Translations under genes and position numbers: made by a program
Part shown: piece after piece, positions 1-18,043 of the stretch
Layout: each line of letters opens with the position of its first letter
Position numbering within the stretch: position 1 is the first letter of the stretch
Notes under the pieces: model-generated
What the model was told of the DNA's origin: nothing
Seen by the model: the letters and a program-made list of their open reading frames with translations, nothing else
The model's database searches: none
NCBI GenBank assembly: GCA_016744455.1
Contig: JADGEI010000011.1
Coordinates: 12,569-76,568, forward strand
Direction of reading: 5' to 3'
Length of the DNA: 64,000 nucleotides
Source of the DNA: Alcanivoracaceae bacterium
Lineage (GTDB): Bacteria > Pseudomonadota > Gammaproteobacteria > Xanthomonadales > Marinicellaceae

Positions 1-730
1 ACATTAATTTAGATACAATTTTTAATTCATTATCAAAATCATACCAATTAGATACAGCACCAACATGAAGTAAAATTTTATCTGTATTGGCATAGCCAAC
101 ATCCTGCTTAAATTGGCTTTTTTCTTGAGTGCTGATTCTTTTAAATAACTGTTTATTTGCACATGTAGGGATTACAGCGATTTTTTTATTATCACAATAT
201 TGACTAATATATAGTACTGATGCATAGGTCAGGGTAACAATAGAATTTGATTTTTTATAAGAATAGTGTTCTATTTTTTTAAGTAGTTTAAACAAAATAG
301 AACCTTTTTTTAACCTACCAACTTCTGCTTTTTCATCAATTTGAAATCCTCTGATATCAAAGATTACTTTTAATTTAAACTTTCTTTTTAAGAAGAGAGC
401 AATCACTACTGGGATTAAACTGCGGGCATGTATTAATTTAATATTGTTTTGCTTAACAAGAATTTTAAGCTCTCTATAGCTAGAGAATATCTGTTTTATA
501 GTAGAAAATATACCATGTTTATTAGAATATTTTTGAAAAGACCACTTTATCTTTTCTCGCTCCATTTTTTTGGATAAATCATTAATGATTTCTTTTCTTA
601 AATCCTTTTCAAATGAATATAAAAACATAGAATAATTATTGCTTAAATCACTTAAGTATTCTAAAACTTGAGATTTTCCAAGAGGTTCGCTCATTCCCAT
701 AATGGATATATAAAGTACGTTTTTATTCAT
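1..730 (-). CDS. Glycosyltransferase family 4, partial (C-terminus outside window)
   Basis: The minus-strand frame is open from an ATG at 730 to the window edge, giving about 243 residues of an N-terminal part. It starts with the Rossmann-like pattern YISIMGMSEPLGKSQV, followed by a VIFDIRGF strand and a HVGAVSNWYD segment, as in the N-terminal half of GT4/GT-B transferases. The ATG lies inside the end of the preceding SGNH gene (8-bp overlap), which supports translational coupling and this start. Family knowledge: a retaining transferase adding one sugar to a lipid-linked repeat unit at the cytoplasmic membrane face. Donor and acceptor cannot be told, and the catalytic C-terminal half is not visible. 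Confidence 0.8.
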   Translation of the reverse strand, partial: MNKNVLYISIMGMSEPLGKSQVLEYLSDLSNNYSMFLYSFEKDLRKEIINDLSKKMEREKIKWSFQKYSNKHGIFSTIKQIFSSYRELKILVKQNNIKLIHARSLIPVVIALFLKRKFKLKVIFDIRGFQIDEKAEVGRLKKGSILFKLLKKIEHYSYKKSNSIVTLTYASVLYISQYCDNKKIAVIPTCANKQLFKRISTQEKSQFKQDVGYANTDKILLHVGAVSNWYDFDNELKIVSKLM

Positions 731-1760
731 TTATTAATTCTTTCAATATATTGCTTAAACGATGGCTATAATATAACCTACCTTGATTATTGAAATGTCT
801 AAAGTCAACCCACATTTCTTTTGTGGTTTTTAATTGAGTTAAATCAATTGTTTCAGCATCAAGATTTTCCTCGATATAATTTATGTCATAAATGTATTGC
901 AAGTTAAATTGATTAACAGGCTCTAATATTATGATTGGTTTTATTCCTTCTTCTTCAACAAGATTTATCAAATGGTTAACAAATTTTACGGTTTCAGTAT
1001 TAATTTGTACTAATTTTATTGTTTTAATATTAATCCAATCTTTAACACTACCAAATAATATACCATCACCTTTTTTACATTTTGTAGTTATAAATGGACC
1101 AGTCTGTTTTTTTGAGAATATTTGGCAATCTGACTTTGTATTATAATTTATGACTTGATTATCAGGCTTAATATTTGTGTTTACAATTGATTTAATATCG
1201 AATCTATTATAAAAACTCACGATTTTTAGGTATATACTTTCTGAATATCGAAGCAGAGAATGAAAATTTCCAATCCAATTTAATGTAGAATTTACTTTGT
1301 AACTAGTATTCATTGTCTGGAAATATGATTTTAGATCTGCAAGTTTGGGGTATTGAGACAGTGGTAATTGACGATATAGCTCATTGACCTCAATACTTAT
1401 GATAATGGATTTAGGAGTATATTTGATGGCTTCTTGAATTAATGAACTGTAATCTTGTAATGAACTATTACTGACGCCTAAATTGTAAATATCAAGATTG
1501 CTGTGTTTAAATGCATTAGTTGAAATATGATAGAAGGTTCTTGAACTGCCTACGAATATTGCATCTGTATTAAGAAGGTTGTTAAATTGTACATGTTTTA
1601 TCTTAGAATCTTTTTCTGTAATGTAGCTATTTGCTGTAGTTTTTTTAGAAACGTAAAATTCCAGCATTAAATCAATAACAACACTTAAAATAATAAATGT
1701 TAATATAAATATAACTATTGAGTTTTTAGTTTGTTTAGAAGTTAAAGTATAAGAACTCAC
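723..1760 (-). CDS. SGNH-like membrane-anchored protein, partner of MBOAT acyltransferase
   Basis: 345 residues with one N-terminal membrane segment (about residues 13-33) and a periplasmic domain. The sequence GSSR at 71-74 resembles SGNH block I, and D319-x-x-H322 (VDFRH) near the C-terminus resembles block V. The gene overlaps the upstream MBOAT gene by 26 bp. In alginate (AlgI/AlgJ/AlgX) and peptidoglycan (PatA/PatB) systems, an MBOAT protein exports the acetyl group and an SGNH-type partner transfers it to sugar. I infer periplasmic O-acylation of the polymer made by this cluster. Overall similarity to named families is low, so the exact acyl group and acceptor are unknown. Confidence 0.7.
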   Translation of the reverse strand: MSSYTLTSKQTKNSIVIFILTFIILSVVIDLMLEFYVSKKTTANSYITEKDSKIKHVQFNNLLNTDAIFVGSSRTFYHISTNAFKHSNLDIYNLGVSNSSLQDYSSLIQEAIKYTPKSIIISIEVNELYRQLPLSQYPKLADLKSYFQTMNTSYKVNSTLNWIGNFHSLLRYSESIYLKIVSFYNRFDIKSIVNTNIKPDNQVINYNTKSDCQIFSKKQTGPFITTKCKKGDGILFGSVKDWINIKTIKLVQINTETVKFVNHLINLVEEEGIKPIIILEPVNQFNLQYIYDINYIEENLDAETIDLTQLKTTKEMWVDFRHFNNQGRLYYSHRLSNILKELINE

Positions 1761-3111
1761 TTTTATCTCCTATTCTGATGATGTATATGCTTACAGTAAA
1801 TAAAATGCCATAAAAAATTGCTGGCAGTATTGTGAATACGTATTTTTTTTGAATACTGTTCTTGAAAAACAATGTTATAAAAAATCCTAAAAATATCATT
1901 GAAATAATAATAGGGTTAATCATTTGTAACTCATCTACTACAAACATTCCCTTAAATATTTTTAATGTATCACTCCATTCTTTAGCTCTAAAAAAAATCC
2001 ATGTTATATTAACAAAGTTAAATGTAATCACCCATGCTATAACTTTATTTAACTTAAATCCAAACTTCCCCCATAGACGATGAATTGAAAGCGCTATACC
2101 ATGCAAGAATCCCCAAAATAAGAATGTCCAACCAGCCCCATGCCAAAGTCCACCCAATATAAATGTTGCCATAATATTTGTATAAGTCCTATAGTTTCCT
2201 CTTCTATTCCCCCCAAGCGGGATATAGATATAATCTCTTAAAAACCTTGATAGTGTCATGTGCCACCTTCTCCAAAAATCCTGAATATCTAGCGCCTTGT
2301 ATGGAGAATTGAAATTGATTGGTAGCTTAATATTAAAAAGCAGGGCTGCTCCAATTGCCATATCAGTATAACCGCTAAAATCAAAATAAAGTTGGAATGA
2401 ATATGATAGTGACGTTGACCAAGCTTCCAATAGGTTTAATGTTATTGCATGATCAAACCCTTGTGTTGCCCATATGGCAAATGTATCAGCTATAGCTACT
2501 TTTTTAAAAAGGCCAATTGTAAATATGAAAATCCCTGTTGCTATATTCTTATAAATTTTTATCTTATTTCGTTTATTAGCAAATTGAGGCATCATTTCCT
2601 TGTGATGAACAATAGGCCCTGCGATCAACTGTGGGAAGAATGTCACAAAAAGCGAATAATTTAGGAAATTATATTCATGTGTTTCTTTTTTATAACTATC
2701 TACTAAATAAGCTATTTGTTGGAATGTAAAAAAACTAATGGCTAATGGCAAGGCTAAATGAAGCAGCGGTATATTTGTTCCCACTGTATTGTTTATGTTT
2801 GAGATGAAAAAATCAGAATATTTGAAATAACCTAAAAGTGATAAATTTGCAATAATGCCAAATGTTAAGATTGGCTTTTTAATACTATTTTTGTGATTCT
2901 TAGTAAGACTAGAGCCAATAGTATAGTTAAATGACATTGAGATTAATATGAGAGGAAGGTAAATAATGTTCCACCAACTATAAAAAAACAAAGAGCTAAG
3001 CACCAGGAATCCTTTGCTAAGTTCTGTTAATCGCTTATTATTTAAATAAAAATAGAAAAACCATGTTATTGGTAAAAATAGAAAAATAAACTCGTAACTA
3101 TTAAATAGCAT
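1735..3111 (-). CDS. MBOAT family O-acyltransferase (AlgI-like)
   Basis: 458-residue polytopic membrane protein of usual AlgI-family length. The family signature GGLWHGAGW is present, with the conserved catalytic histidine at residue 324; upstream it has DFWRRWHMTLSRFLRDY, the other highly conserved MBOAT stretch. The family passes an acyl group, usually acetyl, from a cytoplasmic donor across the membrane for transfer to extracytoplasmic polysaccharide. It overlaps both the asparagine-synthase-like gene before it (11 bp) and the SGNH-like gene after it (26 bp), so the three are one transcription unit. Role in O-acylating the surface polysaccharide is inferred from this context. Confidence 0.9.
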   Translation of the reverse strand: MLFNSYEFIFLFLPITWFFYFYLNNKRLTELSKGFLVLSSLFFYSWWNIIYLPLILISMSFNYTIGSSLTKNHKNSIKKPILTFGIIANLSLLGYFKYSDFFISNINNTVGTNIPLLHLALPLAISFFTFQQIAYLVDSYKKETHEYNFLNYSLFVTFFPQLIAGPIVHHKEMMPQFANKRNKIKIYKNIATGIFIFTIGLFKKVAIADTFAIWATQGFDHAITLNLLEAWSTSLSYSFQLYFDFSGYTDMAIGAALLFNIKLPINFNSPYKALDIQDFWRRWHMTLSRFLRDYIYIPLGGNRRGNYRTYTNIMATFILGGLWHGAGWTFLFWGFLHGIALSIHRLWGKFGFKLNKVIAWVITFNFVNITWIFFRAKEWSDTLKIFKGMFVVDELQMINPIIISMIFLGFFITLFFKNSIQKKYVFTILPAIFYGILFTVSIYIIRIGDKSEFLYFNF

Positions 3112-4981
3112 TGTTGTTATACATATTTTTACTAAACCACATTTGGAACATCAATATTGTCCAAATTTTCCTATCATCAATTTTGTCTCTAAAAAACAAA
3201 TCTTTTAAACTTTCTATATACCCAACATCAAATATATTTTGATCTTTAATTAGTGAAACATCCATGTGAGTGTCGATTAAATATTTTAAATCGTTACGCA
3301 ACCAATTATTTATTGGAATACCAAAACCTGTTTTTTTCCTTTCAAATAATTCTTTGGGCACATATTTGGACAAAATATCTTTGAGAATTCTCTTATTCTT
3401 TTTAAATTCTATGGGAAGCTTGACCGCATATTCAATTACTTTATGATCAAGTAATGGCTCCCTGCTTTCAAGTGAGATACTCATAGATGCTCTGTCAACT
3501 TTCACAAGTATATCGTCTGCTAAGTAACCATTAAAATCAGATAACATCATTTTTTCGATGTTATTTATATTCTCAAAACTAGGGTCATTAATAAAATGAT
3601 ACTTATCTGATAATGCGTGGTTTATTTCGCTTTTTGTAAACACTGAATTTGATACTTTATACATGTTTTGTATATCTTTATGTTCAAGTGTGTTTTTCAA
3701 TTTTAAATACTTAGGATAATACTTTGTACTCCAATTATGAAACTTGACTATTGGATCTGGAATAATTCCAATTATCGTTTTTGCGATATTAAACTTTGAA
3801 AGTTTTTTAATTTTATTAAACCTACCCTCAAATAATTCATAACTTGAATATCCCGCAAATAACTCATCTCCACCATCACCAGATAGTGCGACTGTCACCT
3901 TCTCTTTTGCAATTTGAGAGACCAGCGTAGTAGGAATTGCAGAGCTGTCCGCAAATGGTTCATCGTATATTTCGGGTAATTTTGGAATGATGTCCATGGC
4001 ATCTTTCATACTACAGTAATGTTCAGTGTGGTTTGTCCCAAGGTGTTCAGCTATTTTTTTGGCATAAGGAGCTTCATTAAACTTCTCATCATCAAAACCG
4101 ATAGTAAATGTACTAATAGGCTGTTCAGTATTCTTTTGAAGAATTGCAGTCACCAATGAACTGTCAATTCCACCACTTAGAAAAGTCCCAACGGGTACAT
4201 CTGAAATCATTCTTAATGAGAAAGAATCTTTCAATACGTCTTCTAATTCATTTTGTGCATTTTCATAGCTATTATCCTTGTTTTTCTGTTGATAGTGCTT
4301 AACAACACTCCAGTAATTTTTTATTTTAAATGTGTGGGATTTTAAATCGTATTCTAAATAATTAGCTGCTTTGAGTTTGTGAGTATTCTTGAAAATTGTT
4401 AAGGGTGCTTGGATATAGCCAAATTGTAAATACATTGATAAAGCATTAAAATCAATTTCTTTTTGAAACATGGGGTGTTGATAAAGTGCTTTTAATTCAC
4501 TGGCATATATAAACAAATCATTTTTTTGATAATAATAAAGTGGCTTAACTCCAACCCTGTCTCTGAAAACCCATATTTTCTCTAATTGTTTATCATGAAT
4601 AGCAAAGGCAAACATGCCTCTAAATTTATCAACTGATTTTGCCCCCCAATGATGAAATGCTTTAAGCATAACTTCTGTATCTGAATCTGAGTAAAAAGTA
4701 TAATTCAATTCAATTAACTCTTTTCTAATTTCTTTAAAATTATAAACTTCGCCATTAAATATTATGGTGAAATTTTCATACATCATAGGCTGATGTCCTT
4801 TTAAAGACAAATCTTGAATAGCCAATCGTCTATACCCAAAACCCAAAGAATACTTATGTGTTTCATAGAGTTCATAACCGCTGTCATCAGGACCTCTGTG
4901 GATAAGAGTATCTGTCATAGACTTGAGTAAATCTTTAGTAATACTATTCTTATAATCTATTATACCTGTTATTCCGCACAT
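3101..4981 (-). CDS. asnB: Asparagine synthase-like glutamine amidotransferase (AsnB family)
   Basis: 626 residues with the two AsnB domains. The N-terminal class-II glutaminase begins MCGITG with the catalytic Cys2, and a C-terminal ATP-pyrophosphatase domain carries SGGIDSS at 269-275 and SGDGGDELFAGY further on. The chemistry is glutamine-dependent conversion of a carboxylate to a carboxamide through an acyl-adenylate. Within polysaccharide clusters, relatives such as WbpS and WbtH are thought to amidate hexuronic acids to uronamides. Because neighbouring genes make a diacetamido-uronic acid, uronamide formation is a reasonable inference; ordinary asparagine synthesis cannot be excluded. 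Its stop lies one base into the start codon of the preceding glycosyltransferase region (coordinates touch at 4981), so coupling is tight. Confidence 0.88.
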   Translation of the reverse strand: MCGITGIIDYKNSITKDLLKSMTDTLIHRGPDDSGYELYETHKYSLGFGYRRLAIQDLSLKGHQPMMYENFTIIFNGEVYNFKEIRKELIELNYTFYSDSDTEVMLKAFHHWGAKSVDKFRGMFAFAIHDKQLEKIWVFRDRVGVKPLYYYQKNDLFIYASELKALYQHPMFQKEIDFNALSMYLQFGYIQAPLTIFKNTHKLKAANYLEYDLKSHTFKIKNYWSVVKHYQQKNKDNSYENAQNELEDVLKDSFSLRMISDVPVGTFLSGGIDSSLVTAILQKNTEQPISTFTIGFDDEKFNEAPYAKKIAEHLGTNHTEHYCSMKDAMDIIPKLPEIYDEPFADSSAIPTTLVSQIAKEKVTVALSGDGGDELFAGYSSYELFEGRFNKIKKLSKFNIAKTIIGIIPDPIVKFHNWSTKYYPKYLKLKNTLEHKDIQNMYKVSNSVFTKSEINHALSDKYHFINDPSFENINNIEKMMLSDFNGYLADDILVKVDRASMSISLESREPLLDHKVIEYAVKLPIEFKKNKRILKDILSKYVPKELFERKKTGFGIPINNWLRNDLKYLIDTHMDVSLIKDQNIFDVGYIESLKDLFFRDKIDDRKIWTILMFQMWFSKNMYNNNAI

Positions 4982-6114
4982 TAATTCTTATCTCTATTAA
5001 ACAAGTCAATCCATTGTTTTATTATTAAATCTGAATTAAATTTTGAAGCTGTAATTTCAGCATTACTAATTAAATATTTAACTTTATCTGTATTATTGAA
5101 CAATTTCAAAATTGCTTGTGCTAATGCATTGGAATCTTTAGCTGGAACATGTATTGCATCGAAATTGTTTTTTGTGATCTCTGTTAATCCATCTATATTA
5201 GATACTATAATCGGTTTTTTTAATGACATTGATTCAATTGCGACAAGTCCAAAAGCTTCAAATAAAGATGGGATTACAATTAAATCACTGGCATAAATAA
5301 CGCTAAATAACTTCAATTGTTCCAAATTACCAGTTAATATAAATTGTTCTTGCAACCCTAATTCATCAATTAATTTTTTAAGGTTAGCCTGAAAAGGTCC
5401 ATCGCCAGCTAATACTACTTTAGATGAGAAATTATGCTGCTCTTTTAATATTTGAATGGCTTCAATTAAATATTTATGCCCTTTACTTTCATGCAGCCTT
5501 CCTGGCAATGTAATAAGCTTTTGGTTTGATCCGACCCTGTATTTATTTCTGGTTTTTATAACATTTGAATTATGCATGACATCAATTATTTTGGTAGTGT
5601 CGATCGAATTATAAATTGTCTCTATGTTATTCCAACCATAGAACTCCTCATAATCTTTTTTAACACTTTTTGAAACAGCTATTGTTGCAAAATCGATTTT
5701 TTTACTTTTGTTAAACATCCAATGCCTAAATGAGTACCATAAGCCTTTTTTAATTGAATCTGAAGACACATGATAGTGTAAAACAGAAATAACTTTTACT
5801 TTTTTGAAAAATAATGAGACAAGTCTTGAGTACAGGATTCCAAAATACAAATGCCCCCAAAGTACATCTGGATTAAACCGCTTAATTTCTTTTATTAGTT
5901 TATAAACAGCTTCAAATATAAACCACCTGTGCCTTAAATTAATAATATTTACTTGTACACCTTTATCATTTAGTTCTGACACTAAATCAGTTGGTAGATA
6001 GAATAGACAAACAATTACGGAATGGCCTAAATTTTGAATTTTTGGCAATAGAGTTGTTAATAACCTTTCAGCTCCACCAAAACCTAGAGTTGGTATAACT
6101 ACCATTATTTTCAT
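4981..6114 (-). CDS. Glycosyltransferase family 4
   Basis: 377 residues of typical GT-B/GT4 length. The N-terminus has VVIPTLGFGGAERLL, a donor-fold loop common in GT4 proteins, and the C-terminal domain has the EX7E-like region PSLFEAFGLVAIESMS that contacts the nucleotide sugar. The strand ITLPGRLHESKGHKYLI marks the start of the second Rossmann domain. It lies one base downstream of the sugar amidotransferase gene and its end meets the AsnB-like start, so it belongs to the same operon. It should add one sugar to the lipid-linked oligosaccharide in the cytoplasm; the linkage cannot be told. Confidence 0.9.
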   Translation of the reverse strand: MKIMVVIPTLGFGGAERLLTTLLPKIQNLGHSVIVCLFYLPTDLVSELNDKGVQVNIINLRHRWFIFEAVYKLIKEIKRFNPDVLWGHLYFGILYSRLVSLFFKKVKVISVLHYHVSSDSIKKGLWYSFRHWMFNKSKKIDFATIAVSKSVKKDYEEFYGWNNIETIYNSIDTTKIIDVMHNSNVIKTRNKYRVGSNQKLITLPGRLHESKGHKYLIEAIQILKEQHNFSSKVVLAGDGPFQANLKKLIDELGLQEQFILTGNLEQLKLFSVIYASDLIVIPSLFEAFGLVAIESMSLKKPIIVSNIDGLTEITKNNFDAIHVPAKDSNALAQAILKLFNNTDKVKYLISNAEITASKFNSDLIIKQWIDLFNRDKN

Positions 6115-6115
6115 A

Positions 6116-7939
6116 TTATTTTTTATATAATTTTGGAATTTTATTTATTATGGTTATGGTATCCCTAAAATCTAATGAAAGAGTGTCTAGATACCATCTA
6201 ATGTTTTGATATCTAGGTTTGTTTTCATCATTAACTAACCTTAATGCTTCTTTTCTAGTGATTTGTCCTTCTCTAATTTGATTACTACGAAATGTGTCAT
6301 GTTCTGTAAATCCTGCCACAGTATAATAAACGTAATTATAAAATCCTGCCGTTCCATCTCCTATCCGCCATGTAGTTGATGTATCTATAGCTGTTTCCCA
6401 ATCATACTCTTTGATCAAAGTATTGTTTACAGTTTCTTCATCCCATTGCCAATAATCAAAGATATGAAAATAATCATTCTTCTTAGTAAAGCTTCTATAA
6501 TATTCACCAGAAAGTGTGTCCCATAATGAAGAATTAAAATATCCTGGGCTTGCCAACATTGCTTTAAATCTTTTAGAATGGTACCTAAGTTGTTTCATTG
6601 CTCCATGACTATAGACTTTTTCTTCTTCAAAATCCGGCTTAATTCCTAAAAACCCGGTTTTAAAATGAGTTGTCTCAAGCGGGTTTACTCCCCACAGATT
6701 CAAATTTATACCAGTTTGCTTTTTAATCGTCTCTACATGCCTAAAAAAATGTTTGTCTCCAGCAGTAAGCATTGCTATCATTCCTAAATGAGGTGATTTA
6801 AGCCATGCCCTCAAATTCTTTGCAATATTCTTTCTTTTTTTGGAAATATCCGCAGCTACTATTATGTTTTCTACTCCCATATCACCACACATCTGGCTAA
6901 TATTACGACGACCAAGGTCAGTTACCATTCCCCAGTCATAAGTATATGTTATTGGATTCATACCTAGCTCATTTATAATCAAATGCAAACCATAGCAACT
7001 ATCTCGACCTCCTGAGAATGGAACAATACAATCTAAACCTTCTTTTCTCCGATAAGGTTCAACCAATTTAAAAAGTTCTTCTTTAGGCTTAGGTTTATTG
7101 CGCAATTTATAATTATGGCAATAATTGCAAATACCGTCAATATCAAAACTTATGTATGGCATGGTTTCTGGTAAGATACATTTAGTACATCGTTTTAAAC
7201 ATATTTCATTATATTCCAATAATTTTTCTTCTTTTTTATTGAATTTAAATTCAGGAACAAGGTTTTCAATTCTACTGTTTTTATCATTGATGATAAAGTC
7301 ATCATTGGAAATAGGAATATCTATATAAAAAGCACTTTCTTTTATTTGTTTAATATTAACACACCCTGTTTTATTTAATGCAAAACTTTCTGATGCGAAA
7401 TATATATTGTCGCCATCTTCTCCAACATATAAACTTCCATTGTTTGAAAATAAAATTATTTTCCCATGTGTTGGTATAATAAGAGCACATGAAACAATAC
7501 CTCTACACATAGATAATATCTTTTTTGGAATGTCTGATAAATCTTCACCATCTTCTATTAGGTCTTCAGCAATGGCAACAATAATTTCAGAATCAATTTT
7601 ATAATTTCTTTGTTTTCTAATCTGGTTCCAAATATCCTTTTCATTAACAATAATACCATTGTGAATTGCACAAATTTTATTTCTTATAACAGGTTGATTA
7701 TCATCTAATCCATTTGTAATAAGACGACTATGCCCAAGAATGACTTTAGAATTTTCAATACTAACTGAATTTAGAAGAGTCTCTATATTATAATCTGCTC
7801 GATTTATCTTATAATCTAAATTGTCATAATAAATCAACCCACTAGAATCAATACCTCTTTGTTCTGAATGTTTAACTAATATGTTTAGTTTTTCCATACT
7901 AATTTTACTATTAGAAATTTGACCAAATATACCACACAT
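6116..7939 (-). CDS. Fused class-II glutaminase and WbpG/PseA-type N-acetyl sugar amidotransferase
   Basis: 607 residues with two joined enzymes. Residues 1 to about 215 form an Ntn-type class-II glutaminase starting MCGIFGQIS with Cys2 and HNGIIVNE, as in GlmS and PurF. From about 245 it continues as a WbpG/PseA-type sugar amidotransferase: CTKC near 246-249 and CNYC near 270-275 (probable zinc site), then the PP-loop PFSGGRDSCYG near 308. WbpG installs an acetamidino group on a diacetamido-mannuronic acid and normally takes ammonia from separate HisH/HisF-like partners. Here a different glutaminase class is built in. The wbpB/D/E homologues nearby supply the matching substrate type. The product (amidino-uronic sugar) is inferred; sugar identity is unproved. 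Confidence 0.85.
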   Translation of the reverse strand: MCGIFGQISNSKISMEKLNILVKHSEQRGIDSSGLIYYDNLDYKINRADYNIETLLNSVSIENSKVILGHSRLITNGLDDNQPVIRNKICAIHNGIIVNEKDIWNQIRKQRNYKIDSEIIVAIAEDLIEDGEDLSDIPKKILSMCRGIVSCALIIPTHGKIILFSNNGSLYVGEDGDNIYFASESFALNKTGCVNIKQIKESAFYIDIPISNDDFIINDKNSRIENLVPEFKFNKKEEKLLEYNEICLKRCTKCILPETMPYISFDIDGICNYCHNYKLRNKPKPKEELFKLVEPYRRKEGLDCIVPFSGGRDSCYGLHLIINELGMNPITYTYDWGMVTDLGRRNISQMCGDMGVENIIVAADISKKRKNIAKNLRAWLKSPHLGMIAMLTAGDKHFFRHVETIKKQTGINLNLWGVNPLETTHFKTGFLGIKPDFEEEKVYSHGAMKQLRYHSKRFKAMLASPGYFNSSLWDTLSGEYYRSFTKKNDYFHIFDYWQWDEETVNNTLIKEYDWETAIDTSTTWRIGDGTAGFYNYVYYTVAGFTEHDTFRSNQIREGQITRKEALRLVNDENKPRYQNIRWYLDTLSLDFRDTITIINKIPKLYKK

Positions 7940-8084: not shown

Positions 8085-9245
8085 TTATTTAATATTTTCA
8101 TTATATTTTATAATTTGAATAAATTGATACAATTCATTTACTTTTATTTTCCAATCTACTCTTTTAAAAGCAAGTTGTCTCATTTGTGAAGATATGTTTC
8201 TTTGAGATGAAATGTTACTAGCAAATTCTACAATTTGATTGAAATCTAAAGGAATAGGCTTATTTGGAATTTGTAGAGCAAAATCTACATTATGTGGAAT
8301 ATCTGAATCTTCTGCTGAATAAACAAAAGGGATACCTCTTGCAAGATATTCTCTAATTTTTAAAGCACAAGCTTCAGTTAGCTTTTGTCGATAAATTGCC
8401 AAGCTACCTATAGCTAATGTACTATTAGAAAAAATATCATCAAGTTCCTTTCCTCGTTTTATACCAAGTACATTTGCATTCACATTGTTTTTTAAATCGT
8501 TAACTTTTTTGATTAATAATCTATCCTCAACTGATATGTACTCTCCTATAATATTAATAGTGATATTTAAATTTGTTTCAAACTCTAGTAAAGATTTTAA
8601 CAATTTATCTAAACCATGCCAAGGTGCATATTCAGACGCTACTATGGTCATTGTTAAATTTTTATTTTTAAATGGGATGAATTTCGTATAGGTTACATTT
8701 GATACATCAATTCCGTTAGAAATCGTTTTAACATTTATACCAATATTCCTTTTGGATTCATGTTTGGTAATTTCATCAGTTACACCAATTAACCCAATTA
8801 AATTTTTTTTAAATTTTTTACTATTAATAAATTCTTGAGCAAAGCTAAAAAAATTTCTAATAGAAATTTTACTAATTGTTTCATGAATTGCAATTGCATG
8901 ATGTTCGGTTATTATCTTTGATGGGTACTTATCTGTAAATTTTTCCCAGTCATATGCTACAGGCAATGGATACCTAAATACAATTACATCATAGTTACTC
9001 AAATCAATTGTATTGTTTATGATTGTAAACTTAAAAAATCTTTGCATTATTTTCCGAGTTATGCTTTTTTTTGGATAGATTAACTTCTTATAGAGAATAT
9101 TATTTAACCTGCATTCTTTTTTTCTGTTTAAAATAATATAATCAATGTCTAAATTTAATTTATTAGCTGCATTTGCTTGTTCAATCAGTTTGTTTTCAAT
9201 TCCAACATATAGATATTCAAGCAAATTGAGATGTGCAATTTTCAT
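8085..9245 (-). CDS. Glycosyltransferase, GT4-like
   Basis: 386 residues. The N-terminal half is divergent but begins with a hydrophobic strand (KIAHLNLLEYLYVG). The C-terminal half has recognisable GT-B features: MTIVASEYAPWHGLDKLL at the second-domain start and KIREYLARGIPFVYSAED, where GT4 enzymes bind the donor. The start overlaps the end of the CysE-like acetyltransferase gene by 4 bp (ATGA), so this is the last gene of the wbpB-led unit; 145 bp of AT-rich DNA follow before the next gene. Sugar specificity is unknown. Confidence 0.75.
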   Translation of the reverse strand: MKIAHLNLLEYLYVGIENKLIEQANAANKLNLDIDYIILNRKKECRLNNILYKKLIYPKKSITRKIMQRFFKFTIINNTIDLSNYDVIVFRYPLPVAYDWEKFTDKYPSKIITEHHAIAIHETISKISIRNFFSFAQEFINSKKFKKNLIGLIGVTDEITKHESKRNIGINVKTISNGIDVSNVTYTKFIPFKNKNLTMTIVASEYAPWHGLDKLLKSLLEFETNLNITINIIGEYISVEDRLLIKKVNDLKNNVNANVLGIKRGKELDDIFSNSTLAIGSLAIYRQKLTEACALKIREYLARGIPFVYSAEDSDIPHNVDFALQIPNKPIPLDFNQIVEFASNISSQRNISSQMRQLAFKRVDWKIKVNELYQFIQIIKYNENIK

Positions 9246-11886: not shown

Positions 11887-12987
11887 TTAAACCTGTGTTT
11901 TTAGAAGTTGTTGATTGATATTATTGATTTCTATATCTAATAAATATGGATTCATTGGTAAGCTTAAAATATCTTTTGACACTATTTCACTCACTGGGAA
12001 ATCATTAACTTTATAGCCAAGATATCTAAAACACTCTTGCAAGTGTAATGGCCTAGGGTAATGGACCGCTGTCGGAATATATTGTTCCTTTAAATATAAC
12101 TGTACTTCATCGCGTTTTTTTACTCGAATGGAAAACTGAGCCCAAACAGAGGTAGTAAACTTTTCTATAAAAGGCAATACAATATCTTTAGTTTCAAGTT
12201 CTTCGCAGTACCGATCTGCGACTTTTTGTCTTAAAATTATGTCCTTTTTGTAGTGTTTTAGTTTGACATTTAGAACCGCTGCTTGAATAGTGTCAAGCCT
12301 ACCACCCATTCCAATATATTTATGATGGTATCTTTTATCCTGTCCATGAGTTCTCATTTGTCTCATTTTGACTGCCAATTCCTCATCATTGGTAAATATT
12401 GCCCCACCATCGCCATAACACCCCAATGGTTTTGCTGGGAAAAAACTTGTAGTAGAAATATCACCTAAATTGCTGTCTGTCTTACCTTTATAAGTACTGC
12501 CAAAGCTTTGAGCTCCATCAATGATGACCTTTAAATTGTACCTATCCGCAATCAATTGTATTGCATCAATATCTGCGGGTTGTCCAAAAAGTGATACGGG
12601 CATAATGGCTTTTGTCTTGGATGTAATTCTTTCTTCAATTTTAGATGGGTCAATGTTATAAGTTCTTTCATCAACATCTACGAATACAGGAATTGCACCC
12701 ATAAATGCAATGGTTTCTGCTGTGGCTATAAATGTAAAAGGCGGTGTAATGATTTCATCACCTGGTTTAATGCCCAATGCCATCATTGCTAATAGCAGTG
12801 CATCTGTTCCATTGGAGCATGTAATGGCATGATTAGCATTGGTGAATGATTCTAAACTTTTTTCAAGCTGGGTGATTTCTTCCCCCATTATATAGTTTGA
12901 TTTATTTAGTACTGCTTGAACAGCTTCATCAATTTCTTTTTTGTAAAGTTGGTATTGATACTGTAAATTTGCAAAATCTATTTTCAT
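11887..12987 (-). CDS. wbpE: WbpE-like UDP-3-keto-hexuronate aminotransferase (DegT/DnrJ/EryC1/StrS)
   Basis: 366 residues, full length for a PLP-dependent sugar aminotransferase. The Schiff-base lysine is K186 in [15 protein letters not shown], and [16 protein letters not shown] and GRLDTIQAA are conserved family stretches; many of these stretches match WbpE from memory. Reaction: amino transfer from glutamate to C3 of UDP-2-acetamido-2-deoxy-3-keto-glucuronate. In Pseudomonas WbpE works coupled to WbpB, whose homologue is two genes upstream. The start overlaps the wbpD-like stop by 4 bp, so the three genes are translationally linked. Confidence 0.9.
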
Positions 12988-13556
12988 TTGTATATAACTT
13001 TTAACCCATTGTTAATCAGTTTATATTCGCCAAATTCATCAGATGCTAGGTTATCAATAAATTCTAATGTATTACCTGAAATGCCAACCCAGCCAATCTG
13101 ACGAGCGGGAACACCCGCCATTAGTGCATAGGGTTTGACACTTTTATTAATGACTGCTCCAGATCCTACCATTGAATATTCACCAATAGTTACACCGCAT
13201 ATAATCGTGGCATTGGCGCCTATTGAGCAGCCTTTTTTAAGTAAAGTTTTTTTAAATTCTTCTTTTCTCTGTATAAAAGCTCTGGGATTGATGACATTGG
13301 TAAAAACCATCGACGGCCCAAGAAAAACATCGTCTTCTATTTCTACACCTTCATATATAGAAACATTGTTTTGTACTTTTATACCAGAGCCTAAACTTAC
13401 TTTAGGTCCAACTACGCAGTTTTGGCCGAAGGAACAATTTTTACCAATTTTTGTGTGTGATAGAATGTGAGAAAAATGCCATATTCTTGTATTACTTCCA
13501 ATTTCTACGTTCTCATCAACAATACTTGTTTCATGAACAAAGCTATCATTACTCAT
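12984..13556 (-). CDS. wbpD: WbpD-like UDP-3-amino-hexuronate N-acetyltransferase
   Basis: 190 residues forming a left-handed beta-helix. The sequence RIWHFSHI near the N-terminus and [15 protein letters not shown], then [19 protein letters not shown], are the hallmark stretches of WbpD/WlbB enzymes. It uses acetyl-CoA to acetylate the 3-amino group of UDP-2-acetamido-3-amino-2,3-dideoxy-glucuronate. ATGA overlaps (4 bp) at both ends tie it to the wbpB-like gene before and the wbpE-like gene after, which matches the order of the biochemical steps. Identification is by motif recall; no alignment was run. Confidence 0.9.
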
Positions 13557-14515
13557 CTTTCTTGAACTTTTTTACAAAAAGGATGATAATCACCTTTTAA
13601 ACCGACAGGCTTTAAATCTCTGATAGTTGAAACTGTATTGATTGAGCTGTAAGCTTCGTTAAGACCAAATCCATTTCCTTTTAATATTTCTTTGTAACTT
13701 TTTGTGTGTAAATCGGTAAAACCTCCAGAAAACTCAATTTCTTCACCATTAATCTTAATACTGCGATAAGTTCTTTGCCCAATGCTTTTAACTTTTTCAG
13801 GAATGTAATCATAATTCACAGATAGAAACCACCTGACATTGGCATTTTTCAATTTTAAAAAACCAGCATTAACAAATGGTTTTTTAACATGGACTATATT
13901 TTCTTCAATATCACCAAATATCCAATTAAGCATGTCATAAAAATGTACGCCTATATTTGATGCTATCCCACCAGATTTATCTTCATCGCCTTTCCACGAT
14001 ATAAAAAACCATTTTCCTCGACTTGTTAAATAGGTCAAATCAATATCATAAATTTTATCTGGGTTGTTTTTGAGTTCTTGGGCTACCTTTTCTTTTAAAG
14101 CAATAATGGATGGATGTAATCTGAGTTGTAGAATATTAAATATTTTTTGATCAGTTTCTTCTTCAATAACCTTTAATTGATCTATATTCCAAGGGTTTAG
14201 AACTAATGGTTTCTCACATATAGCATCTGCACCTGACCTTAATGCAAATCGCATATGTGAGTCATGCAAGTAATTTGGGGAACAAATTGATACATAATCT
14301 ATTTTTTTGCCCGTATTTCTACGCCATTTATCAACAAACCTATCAAACCTTTCAAATTCTGTAAAAAAACTGGCTTCAGGAAAATGACTGTCCATAATTC
14401 CAATACCATCGTAAGGGTCTAAAGCAGCAACCAAATCATTACCAGTTTCTTTGATAGCTTTCATGTGTCGAGGTGCAATATATCCAGCAGCCCCTATTAA
14501 AGCAAAGTTTTTCAT
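13553..14515 (-). CDS. wbpB: WbpB-like UDP-N-acetyl-glucuronate 3-dehydrogenase (Gfo/Idh/MocA)
   Basis: 320 residues with the Gfo/Idh/MocA layout: an NAD-binding Rossmann start ([17 protein letters not shown]), the catalytic-region CEKPL at 100-104 and [16 protein letters not shown] in the substrate domain. The A-A-G-Y-I-A-P-R-H version of the nucleotide loop is typical of WbpB/WlbA. Reaction: NAD-dependent oxidation of C3 of UDP-GlcNAcA, producing the 3-keto substrate of WbpE. It is the first gene of the co-directional unit, with about 210 bp of gene-free DNA upstream that should contain the promoter. The dehydrogenase making UDP-GlcNAcA (WbpA) is not in the window. Confidence 0.9.
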
Positions 14516-14725: not shown

Positions 14726-15616
14726 TTAGGTTTTTCTTGAGACTAGGTATTGTGCAAGGTATCTAAGGTAGGAGCTGTCGTTGGGGAGGTGTTGTAGCTG
14801 GGATACGGCTTCTTTTGAGTGTTTTATTGCTGCGCTTTTTGAAGCATCCAAGCCCATAATTGCGGGATAGGTGGATTTATTGTTGCCTATATCTGACCCT
14901 ATGGGTTTGCCAATTTCTTTAGCGTCTCCTATGATGTCTAAGACGTCATCTATTATTTGAAAGGCCATTCCAAAATTATAGGCGTATTTTTTTAGTGCTT
15001 GTTGGGTTTTTTCTGTGCACTTTGGATCTAATATACCGACCATTTCAACTGCTGCTGCAATAAGTGCTCCTGTCTTAAGTTGATGAATGTTATCCATTTC
15101 GGCTAATTGAAGTTGTTTATTCTCTGACTCTAAGTCCAATGATTGTCCACCTGCCATACCAATGGCTCCACAAGATTGACAAAGTTGGGCAATCAGTTTG
15201 ACTACTATTTGCGGATCTGTGTTTACGAGGGTTAAGACCTCAAATGCCATGGCTTGCAGGGCATCTCCTGCGAGTATTGCGGTTGCTTCATCGTATTTTA
15301 CATGACAAGTTGCTTTGCCACGACGTAAATCATCGTCATCCATCGCTGGTAAATCATCGTGGATTAGTGAATAAGCGTGAATCATTTCGACACTTGCAGC
15401 AATAAAATCAGCTTGTTTTAGATCTAAACCGAGTGCTTCGCTTGTGGCATAACTCAATAGTGGACGAATACGTTTGCCGCCTGATAGCAATGAATAACTC
15501 ATTGCTTCAATTAGGCGATTGGATTTTGAATAATGCTGTGTTAAAAAATCAGCTAAAAATGTATTTATACGTTTTTGGTAGTGGTGATTTTTTTCTTCAA
15601 ATTGTTTTGTCATCAT
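14726..15616 (-). CDS. ispA: Farnesyl diphosphate synthase
   Basis: 296 residues, the usual IspA length. The first aspartate-rich motif is DDLPAMDDDD at 87-96 and the second is FQIIDDVLD near 217-225; the GGKRIRPLL substrate-binding stretch lies near 47-55. It condenses IPP with DMAPP and then GPP to give C15 farnesyl diphosphate in the cytoplasm, the precursor of undecaprenyl phosphate, ubiquinone and haem side chains. xseB lies 49-50 bp upstream in the same direction, the common gammaproteobacterial xseB-ispA order; dxs, often next, is absent here. A second Met precedes Lys at the start (MMTKQ), so the start may be one codon later. Confidence 0.96.
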   Translation of the reverse strand: MMTKQFEEKNHHYQKRINTFLADFLTQHYSKSNRLIEAMSYSLLSGGKRIRPLLSYATSEALGLDLKQADFIAASVEMIHAYSLIHDDLPAMDDDDLRRGKATCHVKYDEATAILAGDALQAMAFEVLTLVNTDPQIVVKLIAQLCQSCGAIGMAGGQSLDLESENKQLQLAEMDNIHQLKTGALIAAAVEMVGILDPKCTEKTQQALKKYAYNFGMAFQIIDDVLDIIGDAKEIGKPIGSDIGNNKSTYPAIMGLDASKSAAIKHSKEAVSQLQHLPNDSSYLRYLAQYLVSRKT

Positions 15617-15665
15617 GTCTTATGGATTTCAGCCTTTGCAAATTTGATAAAATTAACTCGTGAGC

Positions 15666-15869
15666 TTAATTTTGTTGTGAACTATTAGCCATGAGTTTTT
15701 CAATTTTCGCTTCGGCTTCTGCCAATGTTTTTTGACAGCTTCTGGTCAATTTTACTCCTTTTTCAAAAAGTTTAAGCGACTCATCTAGGCTCAAATCACC
15801 GGATTCCATTTTACTTACAATTTCATCGAGTTCTTCAACTGATTTCTCAAATGTCTTTCTATCTGTCAT
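15666..15869 (-). CDS. xseB: Exodeoxyribonuclease VII small subunit
   Basis: 67 residues from the internal ATG at 15869, encoding MTDRKTFEKSVEELDEIVSK and the family-typical SLDESLKLFEKGVKLTRSCQ. The reading frame stays open to 15917, but the 16 extra N-terminal residues do not resemble XseB and most relatives begin near the MTDRK position, so I chose the shorter start. XseB binds the XseA catalytic subunit to form the nuclease that degrades single-stranded DNA to oligonucleotides. ispA follows in the same direction. Confidence 0.93.
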   Translation of the reverse strand: MTDRKTFEKSVEELDEIVSKMESGDLSLDESLKLFEKGVKLTRSCQKTLAEAEAKIEKLMANSSQQN

Positions 15870-15957
15870 AGTACTCAACTCTACTTGTGTATAAAAGGCG
15901 TATTTTAACAGAGTCAATGTGTAATGTGCAATGACGATGTATATTACACCTTGTTGA

Positions 15958-16656
15958 TTACTTCCAACCGCAAGCAGTTATAACTATGGCTACTGAAACA
16001 CAGTCGATTTTGGTTCCGTATTTTGTTGTGAAGCGTTTTTTTTTGGTTATTTTATCCATAAACCGTTCTACACTACCTTCTATCCCTTCTGAATAGAAGT
16101 TCATTTCGTATTGCGGTTTATCGACTTCTTCATCTATTAGTTTTGTTACCTGATTCCATTTGGGTTGTTGGTATGTTTTGTAAATAAAGTCTTCTGGATT
16201 TGCTGTCCTTGGTTGAAAAGCTTTATCTAAATTATATAATTTAGCTTTCCCTTGCATTGAATTTAGAATTAAACCAACTGAGGGGAGTTTATTTTGATTC
16301 TTCTCAATCTTGTTTTTTTGTTGGTTTTGTTGGTTTTGTTCTTTTTTTGCTAGCAGAGGTTTGCTTTTTTCTTTAGGTTTAGGTGGTTCTTTAATAGTTT
16401 CTGGTTTTGGCTTTATGGCATCAATTTGTACTTTTTGAGGTTCTATTGGTTTTTTTATAGGTTCTATTTGTACTGTCTTTGGTTTAACTAACTCAACACT
16501 TATGCGAGTCTTTTCAGTGCCTTGTTGCAACGACTGGTTTATTGGTATCAATAATAACAATGCCAGTACAACAACAGATAGACTCAGAGCTGTTGCATGC
16601 CTTTTTATAGAGTTATTGTTTTTTAACCAGTTGTGTTGTTGCCAAATTGTTTGCAA
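15958..16656 (-). CDS. TonB-like N-terminal protein with divergent C-terminus, function unknown
   Basis: 232 residues. A short cytoplasmic N-terminus is followed by one membrane helix (about 22-41, ALSLSVVVLALLLLIPI), then a long Pro/Lys/Glu-rich spacer (about 57-125) with repeated PKP/EPP units like the periplasm-spanning part of TonB. The C-terminal 100 residues do not show the TonB signature (no YP..A...G..G.V), and contain a Cys pair near the end (CVSVAIVITACGWK). ExbB/ExbD genes are not adjacent. It may span the periplasm and hold an unidentified partner. It is transcribed away from the membrane protein gene at 16766. Confidence 0.6.
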   Translation of the reverse strand: MQTIWQQHNWLKNNNSIKRHATALSLSVVVLALLLLIPINQSLQQGTEKTRISVELVKPKTVQIEPIKKPIEPQKVQIDAIKPKPETIKEPPKPKEKSKPLLAKKEQNQQNQQKNKIEKNQNKLPSVGLILNSMQGKAKLYNLDKAFQPRTANPEDFIYKTYQQPKWNQVTKLIDEEVDKPQYEMNFYSEGIEGSVERFMDKITKKKRFTTKYGTKIDCVSVAIVITACGWK

Positions 16657-16765
16657 ACTTTTTATTGTCCATTTCCCATTCCAAGTAGTGTATTTTAGTG
16701 ATATGATGTTAATTGAAAGTTAAATTCATACTATCTAACTAAATTAATTCAACTACAAAGAACAC

Positions 16766-18043
16766 ATGAAACCTGCAAATCCCCAAAAGTTTTTTTTATC
16801 TAACTTGCCACAGTTTTTTTCTTATGTGAATAGTAATCAAATCTTGCCTATGATTTTACTTTTGGCTGCTGGTCATGTGTTTACATTATTGCCATCAATT
16901 TTGGGGCTAATTGCTCTTTTTGTTTTGTATGCTTTGGTATATAAATTAGCTGTCGATGTGCTACTAGAAACAGCACATGGGAATATGCTGCCTGGTGACT
17001 TTCAGAGTTCTTTTGAAGCTAAATCAATCTTAATTCAATTTATTGTTGTTGGGTTATGCCAAAAAGGTATTTTAATTTGGTTGCTGTATTTTGTAAAAGA
17101 TCCTCTGATTTTAGTTTCCTATATCTTTGCTAGTACGTTTTTAACGCCAGCTATTTTTATGGTTTTATCTGTGACCAATTCGATCACCAGTGCTTTAAAT
17201 CCCATGACAATTATTCGTTTGATTAAACCACTATTTTTTAGTTACCTTTGCTTTGTTGGTTTTTGGTTGCTCTTAGAGTATTTACAACTCTACGCTATTG
17301 AACCGTTATTTTACAGAATTTTACCTGAGTTGTTTGCAAACATTGTCATTCTATTTTTTAAATTTTTTATCATGGTACTTAACTTTCACATCATGGGTTT
17401 TTTAATTTTTCAAAATCGAGAGTCCTATGGTTTTGAAGCTATGTTTAATAGTGAAAATGACGATGAATCATTAACTCTACAACAAGCTGAATCAAATCCT
17501 ATTCACCAGAGAATTAGAAGCTTGATACTTGCTGGAAATTTTTCTCAAGCGGCATTAATCATTGCCGAATTAAAAAAAAATGGTGATAATTCTAACGAGC
17601 TGCTGGTATTAGAAAAGCAGATAGAAGAATCAGCAAAAGATGATAAAACCAAATCGTTATCTGATGCTGAGTCAATACACGAGCTTATTAACGAAAATAA
17701 AATTGGCGCAGCTTTTAAACTTTATAGTGATTTAATCTTAGAAAATAAGAAATTCATTGAGAAAGACCCAACCGATATCAATGTTTTAGCTAAGTATGCT
17801 TTTTCTGCCGAAAAATTTCAAATGGTTGTAGACATTGTTAAGTTTTTTCATAACAAATATCCGGGGCATGAAGATATTGTGGCCAATTATTTTTTATTGG
17901 CACAAGTTCTTTATCGTAATCAAAACACTAAAGCAAAAGCTCAAACCATTTTGAATGGGTTGATAAAAAAATACCCAAACCATAAACTTAATTCACAACT
18001 AAGTTCATGGCTTAAAGGCATGGAGTTAATGAATCAAAAATAA
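16766..18043 (+). CDS. Polytopic membrane protein with C-terminal helical-repeat domain, function unknown
   Basis: 425 residues. The first 220 contain about five to six membrane segments (for example MILLLAAGHVFTLLPSILGL and ILIWLLYFVKDPLILVSYIF). From about 245 the sequence is soluble and alpha-helical, with TPR-like spacing (NFSQAALIIAELKKNGDN, AKYAFSAEKFQMVVDIVKFF and AKAQTILNGLIKKYPNHKL). I do not recognise the family beyond this. The TPR-like part suggests protein binding in the cytoplasm. It is divergent from the TonB-like gene (about 110 bp shared upstream) and converges with the lipoprotein gene 3 bp away. Confidence 0.65.
   Translation: MKPANPQKFFLSNLPQFFSYVNSNQILPMILLLAAGHVFTLLPSILGLIALFVLYALVYKLAVDVLLETAHGNMLPGDFQSSFEAKSILIQFIVVGLCQKGILIWLLYFVKDPLILVSYIFASTFLTPAIFMVLSVTNSITSALNPMTIIRLIKPLFFSYLCFVGFWLLLEYLQLYAIEPLFYRILPELFANIVILFFKFFIMVLNFHIMGFLIFQNRESYGFEAMFNSENDDESLTLQQAESNPIHQRIRSLILAGNFSQAALIIAELKKNGDNSNELLVLEKQIEESAKDDKTKSLSDAESIHELINENKIGAAFKLYSDLILENKKFIEKDPTDINVLAKYAFSAEKFQMVVDIVKFFHNKYPGHEDIVANYFLLAQVLYRNQNTKAKAQTILNGLIKKYPNHKLNSQLSSWLKGMELMNQK

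Follow-up and report, generated by a model that had tools for sequence, protein, structure and literature searches.

A 607-residue protein, encoded by an open reading frame with an ATG start in the window (the whole 64,000-nucleotide stretch of Alcanivoracaceae DNA analyzed here), joins an N-terminal class II (Ntn) glutaminase to a PP-loop amidotransferase domain of the N-acetyl-sugar amidotransferase (NASAT) type and is, as judged from its sequence, probably a single-chain, glutamine-dependent acetamidino synthase. A self-sufficient enzyme of this kind is the best reading given the domain architecture, its conservation and the absence of HisH2 and HisF2. The evidence in hand comprises both domains, intact active sites, a fold match, retention of the fusion, the missing HisH2 and HisF2, and co-inheritance with wbpD.

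Domain architecture and active sites

The two halves of the protein are recognized by different profiles. GATase_6 scores 44 bits against a Pfam cut-off of 27 and together with GATase_7 spans residues 63-189, and the C-terminal half has no Pfam match, Asn_synthase (PF00733) included. The NCBIfam models for GlmS, PurF and AsnB are restricted to the N-terminal part; the GlmS model (TIGR01135) reaches 63.7 bits against a cut-off of 418 over residues 2-243 only, the isomerase half being absent. Residues 249-574 match the NCBIfam WbuX model (TIGR03573) with 148.4 bits, under the curated cut-off of 203.2. A phmmer search of the PDB pairs the C-domain with LpNASAT (8wex) and the N-domain with GlmS. 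In an AlphaFold2 model built with 50 aligned sequences (pLDDT 89.4, pTM 0.88), the N-domain from residue 2 onward resembles PurF (Z 24.1) and GlmS (Z 23.7) more than AsnB (Z 18.8). Residues 247-607 of the model superpose on LpNASAT chain 8wex_B over 319 residues with a Z of 22.5, an rmsd of 4.2 and 21% identity. By this model, the nearest solved relative of the C-domain is the Legionella N-acetyl-sugar amidotransferase LpNASAT, and the glutaminase is more PurF/GlmS-like than AsnB-like. The two-domain architecture put forward in the original prediction is thus borne out by domain searches and fold matches. Of its finer assignments, a glutaminase like that of AsnB or GlmS is right for GlmS and less so for AsnB, and a WbpG/PseA-type C-domain agrees in NASAT fold and motifs but scores too low for membership under the curated cut-off.

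The signature residues of class II glutaminases, i.e., an N-terminal Cys, an Arg, the Asn-Gly oxyanion hole and the glutamine-binding Asp, are all present. Cys2, Arg72, Asn94-Gly95 and Asp116, which we take to be the equivalents of GlmS Cys1, Arg73, Asn98-Gly99 and Asp123, are invariant in an alignment of 50 relatives. The four cysteines and the SGGRDS loop of the C-domain (Table 1) are equally invariant, and conservation of the linker is poor. The motifs that define NASAT, an SGGxDS PP-loop and CxxC...[GN]xCxxC (PMC10607449), both occur in the C-domain.

Table 1. Features of the fusion gene and its cluster, in window positions.
Feature	Position	Strand	Evidence
Fused class II glutaminase / NASAT-like PP-loop amidotransferase	6116..7939	(-)	ORF, domain searches, genome scan, structure model
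Class II (Ntn) glutaminase domain, residues ~1-210	7310..7939	(-)	Pfam, alignment, fold match
Inter-domain linker, residues 211-245	7205..7309	(-)	Alignment, poorly conserved
NASAT-like ATP-PPase domain, residues 246-607 and stop	6116..7204	(-)	NCBIfam, PDB, fold match
Tetracysteine motif C251-x2-C254 ... G269-x-C271-x2-C274, expected Zn site	7118..7189	(-)	Alignment; motif as in PMC10607449
PP-loop SGGRDS, residues 309-314	6998..7015	(-)	Alignment
wbpB, UDP-GlcNAcA 3-dehydrogenase	13553..14515	(-)	386.6 bits to WbpB 3oa2
wbpD, 3-N-acetyltransferase	12984..13556	(-)	210.8 bits to 3mqg
wbpE, aminotransferase	11887..12987	(-)	398 bits to WbpE 3nyu
GT4 glycosyltransferase directly downstream of the fusion, candidate for transfer of its product	4981..6114	(-)	Pfam
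AsnB-type amidotransferase (GATase_7 and Asn_synthase), candidate uronamide former like P. gingivalis WbpS	3101..4981	(-)	Domain searches, 317 bits
GT1-family glycosyltransferase, weak match, upstream of the fusion	8085..9245	(-)	Pfam

The fusion combines elements of several known systems. With the WbpG/WbuX/PseA proteins (TIGR03573; LpNASAT 8WEX) it shares the SGGxDS PP-loop, the tetracysteine motif, the fold over residues 247-607 and a polysaccharide gene setting, but its C-domain is only ~20-30% identical to theirs and falls under the curated cut-off, and it carries its own N-terminal class II glutaminase without HisH/HisF partners. Asparagine synthetase B and the WbpS-type uronamide amidotransferases likewise place a class II glutaminase ahead of a PP-loop ATPase in one chain, whereas the glutaminase of the fusion is nearer to PurF/GlmS and its synthetase half is of the NASAT type with a Cys4 site, not Asn_synthase. 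GlmS and PurF have the Ntn glutaminase fold and catalytic residues in common with the fusion, which lacks the isomerase (SIS) and phosphoribosyltransferase domains. The three-protein system of WbpG, HisH2 and HisF2 would carry out the same net reaction, from glutamine, ATP and an N-acetyl sugar to an acetamidino sugar, but with a class I triad, in contrast to one polypeptide with an Ntn class II glutaminase.

Distribution of the fusion and supply of ammonia

Scanning 84,980 species genomes recovered 256 relatives, of which the best 80 matches are nearly full-length fusions at 62-77% identity; chance or an assembly artefact is excluded by these full-length relatives in 80 other genomes. The relatives belong to Bacteroidota, Pseudomonadota, Campylobacterota, Bacillota, Planctomycetota, Spirochaetota and other phyla, and the fusion is kept in remoter relatives at ~40% identity, such as that of a Solidesulfovibrio plasmid (G041). 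Phage and plasmid collections add a few further full-length relatives, and in E. coli the fusion occurs in 2 of 5,426 genomes. Database records name it 'glucosamine 6-phosphate synthetase', 'QueC' (7-cyano-7-deazaguanine synthase) or 'hypothetical', no curated family names it, the nearest being TIGR03573/WbuX, and a literature search, chiefly of freely readable papers, found no described glutaminase-WbuX fusion. Against TIGR03573, the fusion proteins of 50 genomes score 124-155 bits and canonical members 220-408. In a tree of the PP-loop domain the fusions form a single group opposite canonical WbuX, separated by a saturated branch. These comparisons place the fusion as a widespread and very divergent sister of WbpG/PseA, to be filed as a sister family. 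As the score lies far under the cut-off and the branch is saturated, the chemistry of the C-domain could differ from that of WbuX.

One viral contig with the PP-loop domain but no glutaminase counts against an acetamidino synthase, as does the presence of canonical WbuX in 20 of 50 fusion-bearing genomes. The stand-alone viral copy nests within the fusion group of the tree, and this position suggests that the glutaminase was lost there. It lies among nucleotide-sugar genes at positions 4992-6104 of a 119.5-kb IMG/VR contig (L006; 74% identity), in which no class II glutaminase of the fusion type was found. Two other IMG/VR viral contigs (L004 and L005, positions 5001-6827 in each) carry the full fusion at 56% identity; the open reading frames next to these gave no PHROGs match among those tested, the phage setting being that of the IMG/VR classification.

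The original prediction that no hisH/hisF-like genes accompany the cluster holds genome-wide. The window genome (99.96% complete) encodes one HisH and one HisF, beside a HisA-like gene on one contig, and the whole genome has no hisH or hisF outside this histidine operon. Canonical WbuX over the cut-off is absent from 30 of the 50 fusion-bearing genomes, and none of these 30 has a second HisF-like protein, counted at >=200 bits (at least 200), vs 14 of the 20 genomes with canonical WbuX (Fisher p=4e-8, related genomes not being independent). One HisF-like copy is found in 28 of the fusion-only genomes and none in the other two. Copy number was used in this comparison since the cut-off of the NCBIfam HisF2 model (TIGR03572) does not separate HisF2 from HisF. 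HisF2 therefore tracks canonical WbuX and not the fusion, which supports an ammonia supply that dispenses with HisH and HisF and contradicts constant co-inheritance of the two. The genomes with both enzymes indicate that the fusion is not simply a replacement of WbpG, and on sequence grounds it is best regarded as an enzyme parallel to canonical WbuX. The proposal of a separate solution to ammonia delivery is accordingly upheld insofar as the protein has its own glutaminase, but this solution is neither a plain substitute for WbpG nor a local oddity. On a plasmid of Agrobacterium sp. MA01 (L112), HisH/AglZ-HisF2 (positions 712-2083) and the fusion (15001-16815) are found in one polysaccharide region.

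Sugar pathway and candidate substrates

Among the neighbors originally named, wbpB, wbpD and wbpE are real (Table 1) and wbpI is absent, as no WecB/WbpI 2-epimerase scores over the cut-off anywhere in the window genome (best 82 bits). With the WbpB, WbpD and WbpE homologs of the cluster and a UDP-HexNAc 6-dehydrogenase encoded elsewhere in the genome, UDP-GlcNAc3NAcA can be made; a manno product is unlikely given the lack of a 2-epimerase, and the product of the window cluster is expected to be of the gluco type. Diacetylbacillosamine was rejected as a substrate in the window because no pglC/D/F-type genes were seen in the cluster. Further along the minus strand (positions 723-3111), an MBOAT-like O-acyltransferase, recognized by sequence motif, overlaps a 345-residue protein that lacks a Pfam match, an arrangement resembling an O-acetylation pair. 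Near the left edge of the window, a GT4 gene (L003 12065-13298) is apparently split in the assembly by four undetermined (N) codons.

The predicted link to the diacetamido-uronic acid (GlcNAc3NAcA) pathway is supported by wbpD (51-80% identity), which is found in 46 of the 50 fusion genomes, within 30 kb of the fusion in 35 of these, vs 34 of 298 background genomes drawn across the phylum of the window. An optional role of this pathway, suggested by wbpD among the 10-kb neighbors of 23 of 51 loci, was overturned by the genome-wide search. In the 51 loci with full flanks the commonest neighbors are a GT4 gene, usually directly downstream (44/51), and a pglC-type sugar transferase (34/51), all neighbor counts being lower bounds as ORF prediction misses correct-strand genes at some high-GC loci; one conserved neighbor family is DUF7033. 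In E. coli Z1323CEC0003, the fusion lies between galF and gnd in a rare, compact O-antigen locus (L117 5262-18315). Beside it are TviB, a WlbA-like dehydrogenase, WbpD, WbpE, WecB and two GT4s, such that the sugar genes other than the fusion are exactly the GlcNAc3NAcA pathway plus wecB; the examined region of this genome has no hisH/hisF beyond the histidine pair. A complete wbpD is missing in four of the 50 fusion genomes, including Taylorella asinigenitalis, and GlcNAc3NAcA is thus not the sole substrate of the family.

In the predicted reaction, the N-terminal glutaminase would hydrolyze glutamine via Cys2 and the ammonia would reach the PP-loop domain within the one polypeptide. This domain would adenylate a sugar N-acetyl group at the carbonyl oxygen, converting ATP to AMP and PPi, and displacement of AMP by ammonia would yield sugar-NH-C(=NH)CH3. 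The likeliest substrate in the window is UDP-2,3-diacetamido-2,3-dideoxy-D-glucuronic acid, presumably formed by a WbpA-type dehydrogenase with WbpB, WbpE and WbpD. Amidination may occur at N-2 or N-3 of the UDP-2-acetamido(-3-acetamido) uronic acid, and the amidinated sugar could then be joined to the exopolysaccharide unit by the GT4 enzyme.

The same chemistry could instead act on a conserved 2-N-acetyl group, that of UDP-GlcNAcA or UDP-GlcNAc, to give GlcNAmA or GlcNAm, with wbpB/D/E serving another residue of the same repeat; we rate this a serious contender at a little below an even chance. T. asinigenitalis ATCC 700933 fits it, having the fusion and one UDP-HexNAc 6-dehydrogenase and lacking wbpD, HisF and canonical WbuX, and the O-polysaccharide of this species reportedly contains 2-acetamidino-glucuronic acid. 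In the P. reactans O-chain, 2-acetamidino-glucosamine adjoins QuiNAc4NAc (PMC2746572), and a pglC-type module is often beside the fusion. Frequent coexistence with canonical WbuX would also make sense were each enzyme to amidinate its own nitrogen or sugar, and it is the co-inheritance of wbpD that speaks against a substrate of this type.

An activity like that of the AsnB-type WbpS, which would yield a uronamide (C6 carboxamide) instead of an amidine, is improbable. Ammonia and ATP-PPase chemistry would suit amidation of a carboxylate too, and the pathway yields uronic acids, but a separate AsnB-type gene in the window, whose product has the hydroxyamidotransferase TsnB9 as its best solved match, could fill this role, such genes co-occur with the fusion in 16 of 51 loci, and the C-domain, closest to NASAT, does not match Asn_synthase. 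Acetamidino groups give 13C signals at ~167 and 20 ppm (PMC2746572). The 605-residue Tannerella forsythia protein Tanf_01265, a proposed acetamidino-forming enzyme (PMC6120980), may be either a fusion of this type or an AsnB. The chance that the fusion is an ordinary GlmS or AsnB, misannotated, is negligible: its database label of glucosamine 6-phosphate synthetase is refuted by domain searches, in which neither the GlmS isomerase nor Asn_synthase is matched and the C-domain matches NASAT.

Implications for surface polysaccharides

With the acetamidino synthase as the preferred reading, there is a somewhat better than even chance that the fusion represents a second, independently assembled family of such enzymes, with its own substrate or regiochemistry (e.g., N-2 of uronic acids), distributed across bacterial phyla and bacterial viruses and often acting on the same polysaccharide as canonical WbpG/HisH/HisF. 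The fusion also adds to the known pairings of PP-loop synthases with glutaminases of an unrelated class. The literature search turned up no WbpG-type enzyme whose ammonia delivery had been reconstituted; a self-sufficient enzyme in a single chain would, if the prediction is true, offer the simplest setting for reconstituting and solving acetamidino chemistry. Amidinated sugars would likewise become predictable in a few hundred genomes whose records currently label the gene GlmS, QueC or hypothetical. Acetamidino groups alter both charge and serospecificity in the surface polysaccharides of bacteria, and the fusion probably makes these rare sugars for such polysaccharides without the two helper proteins of the known system.
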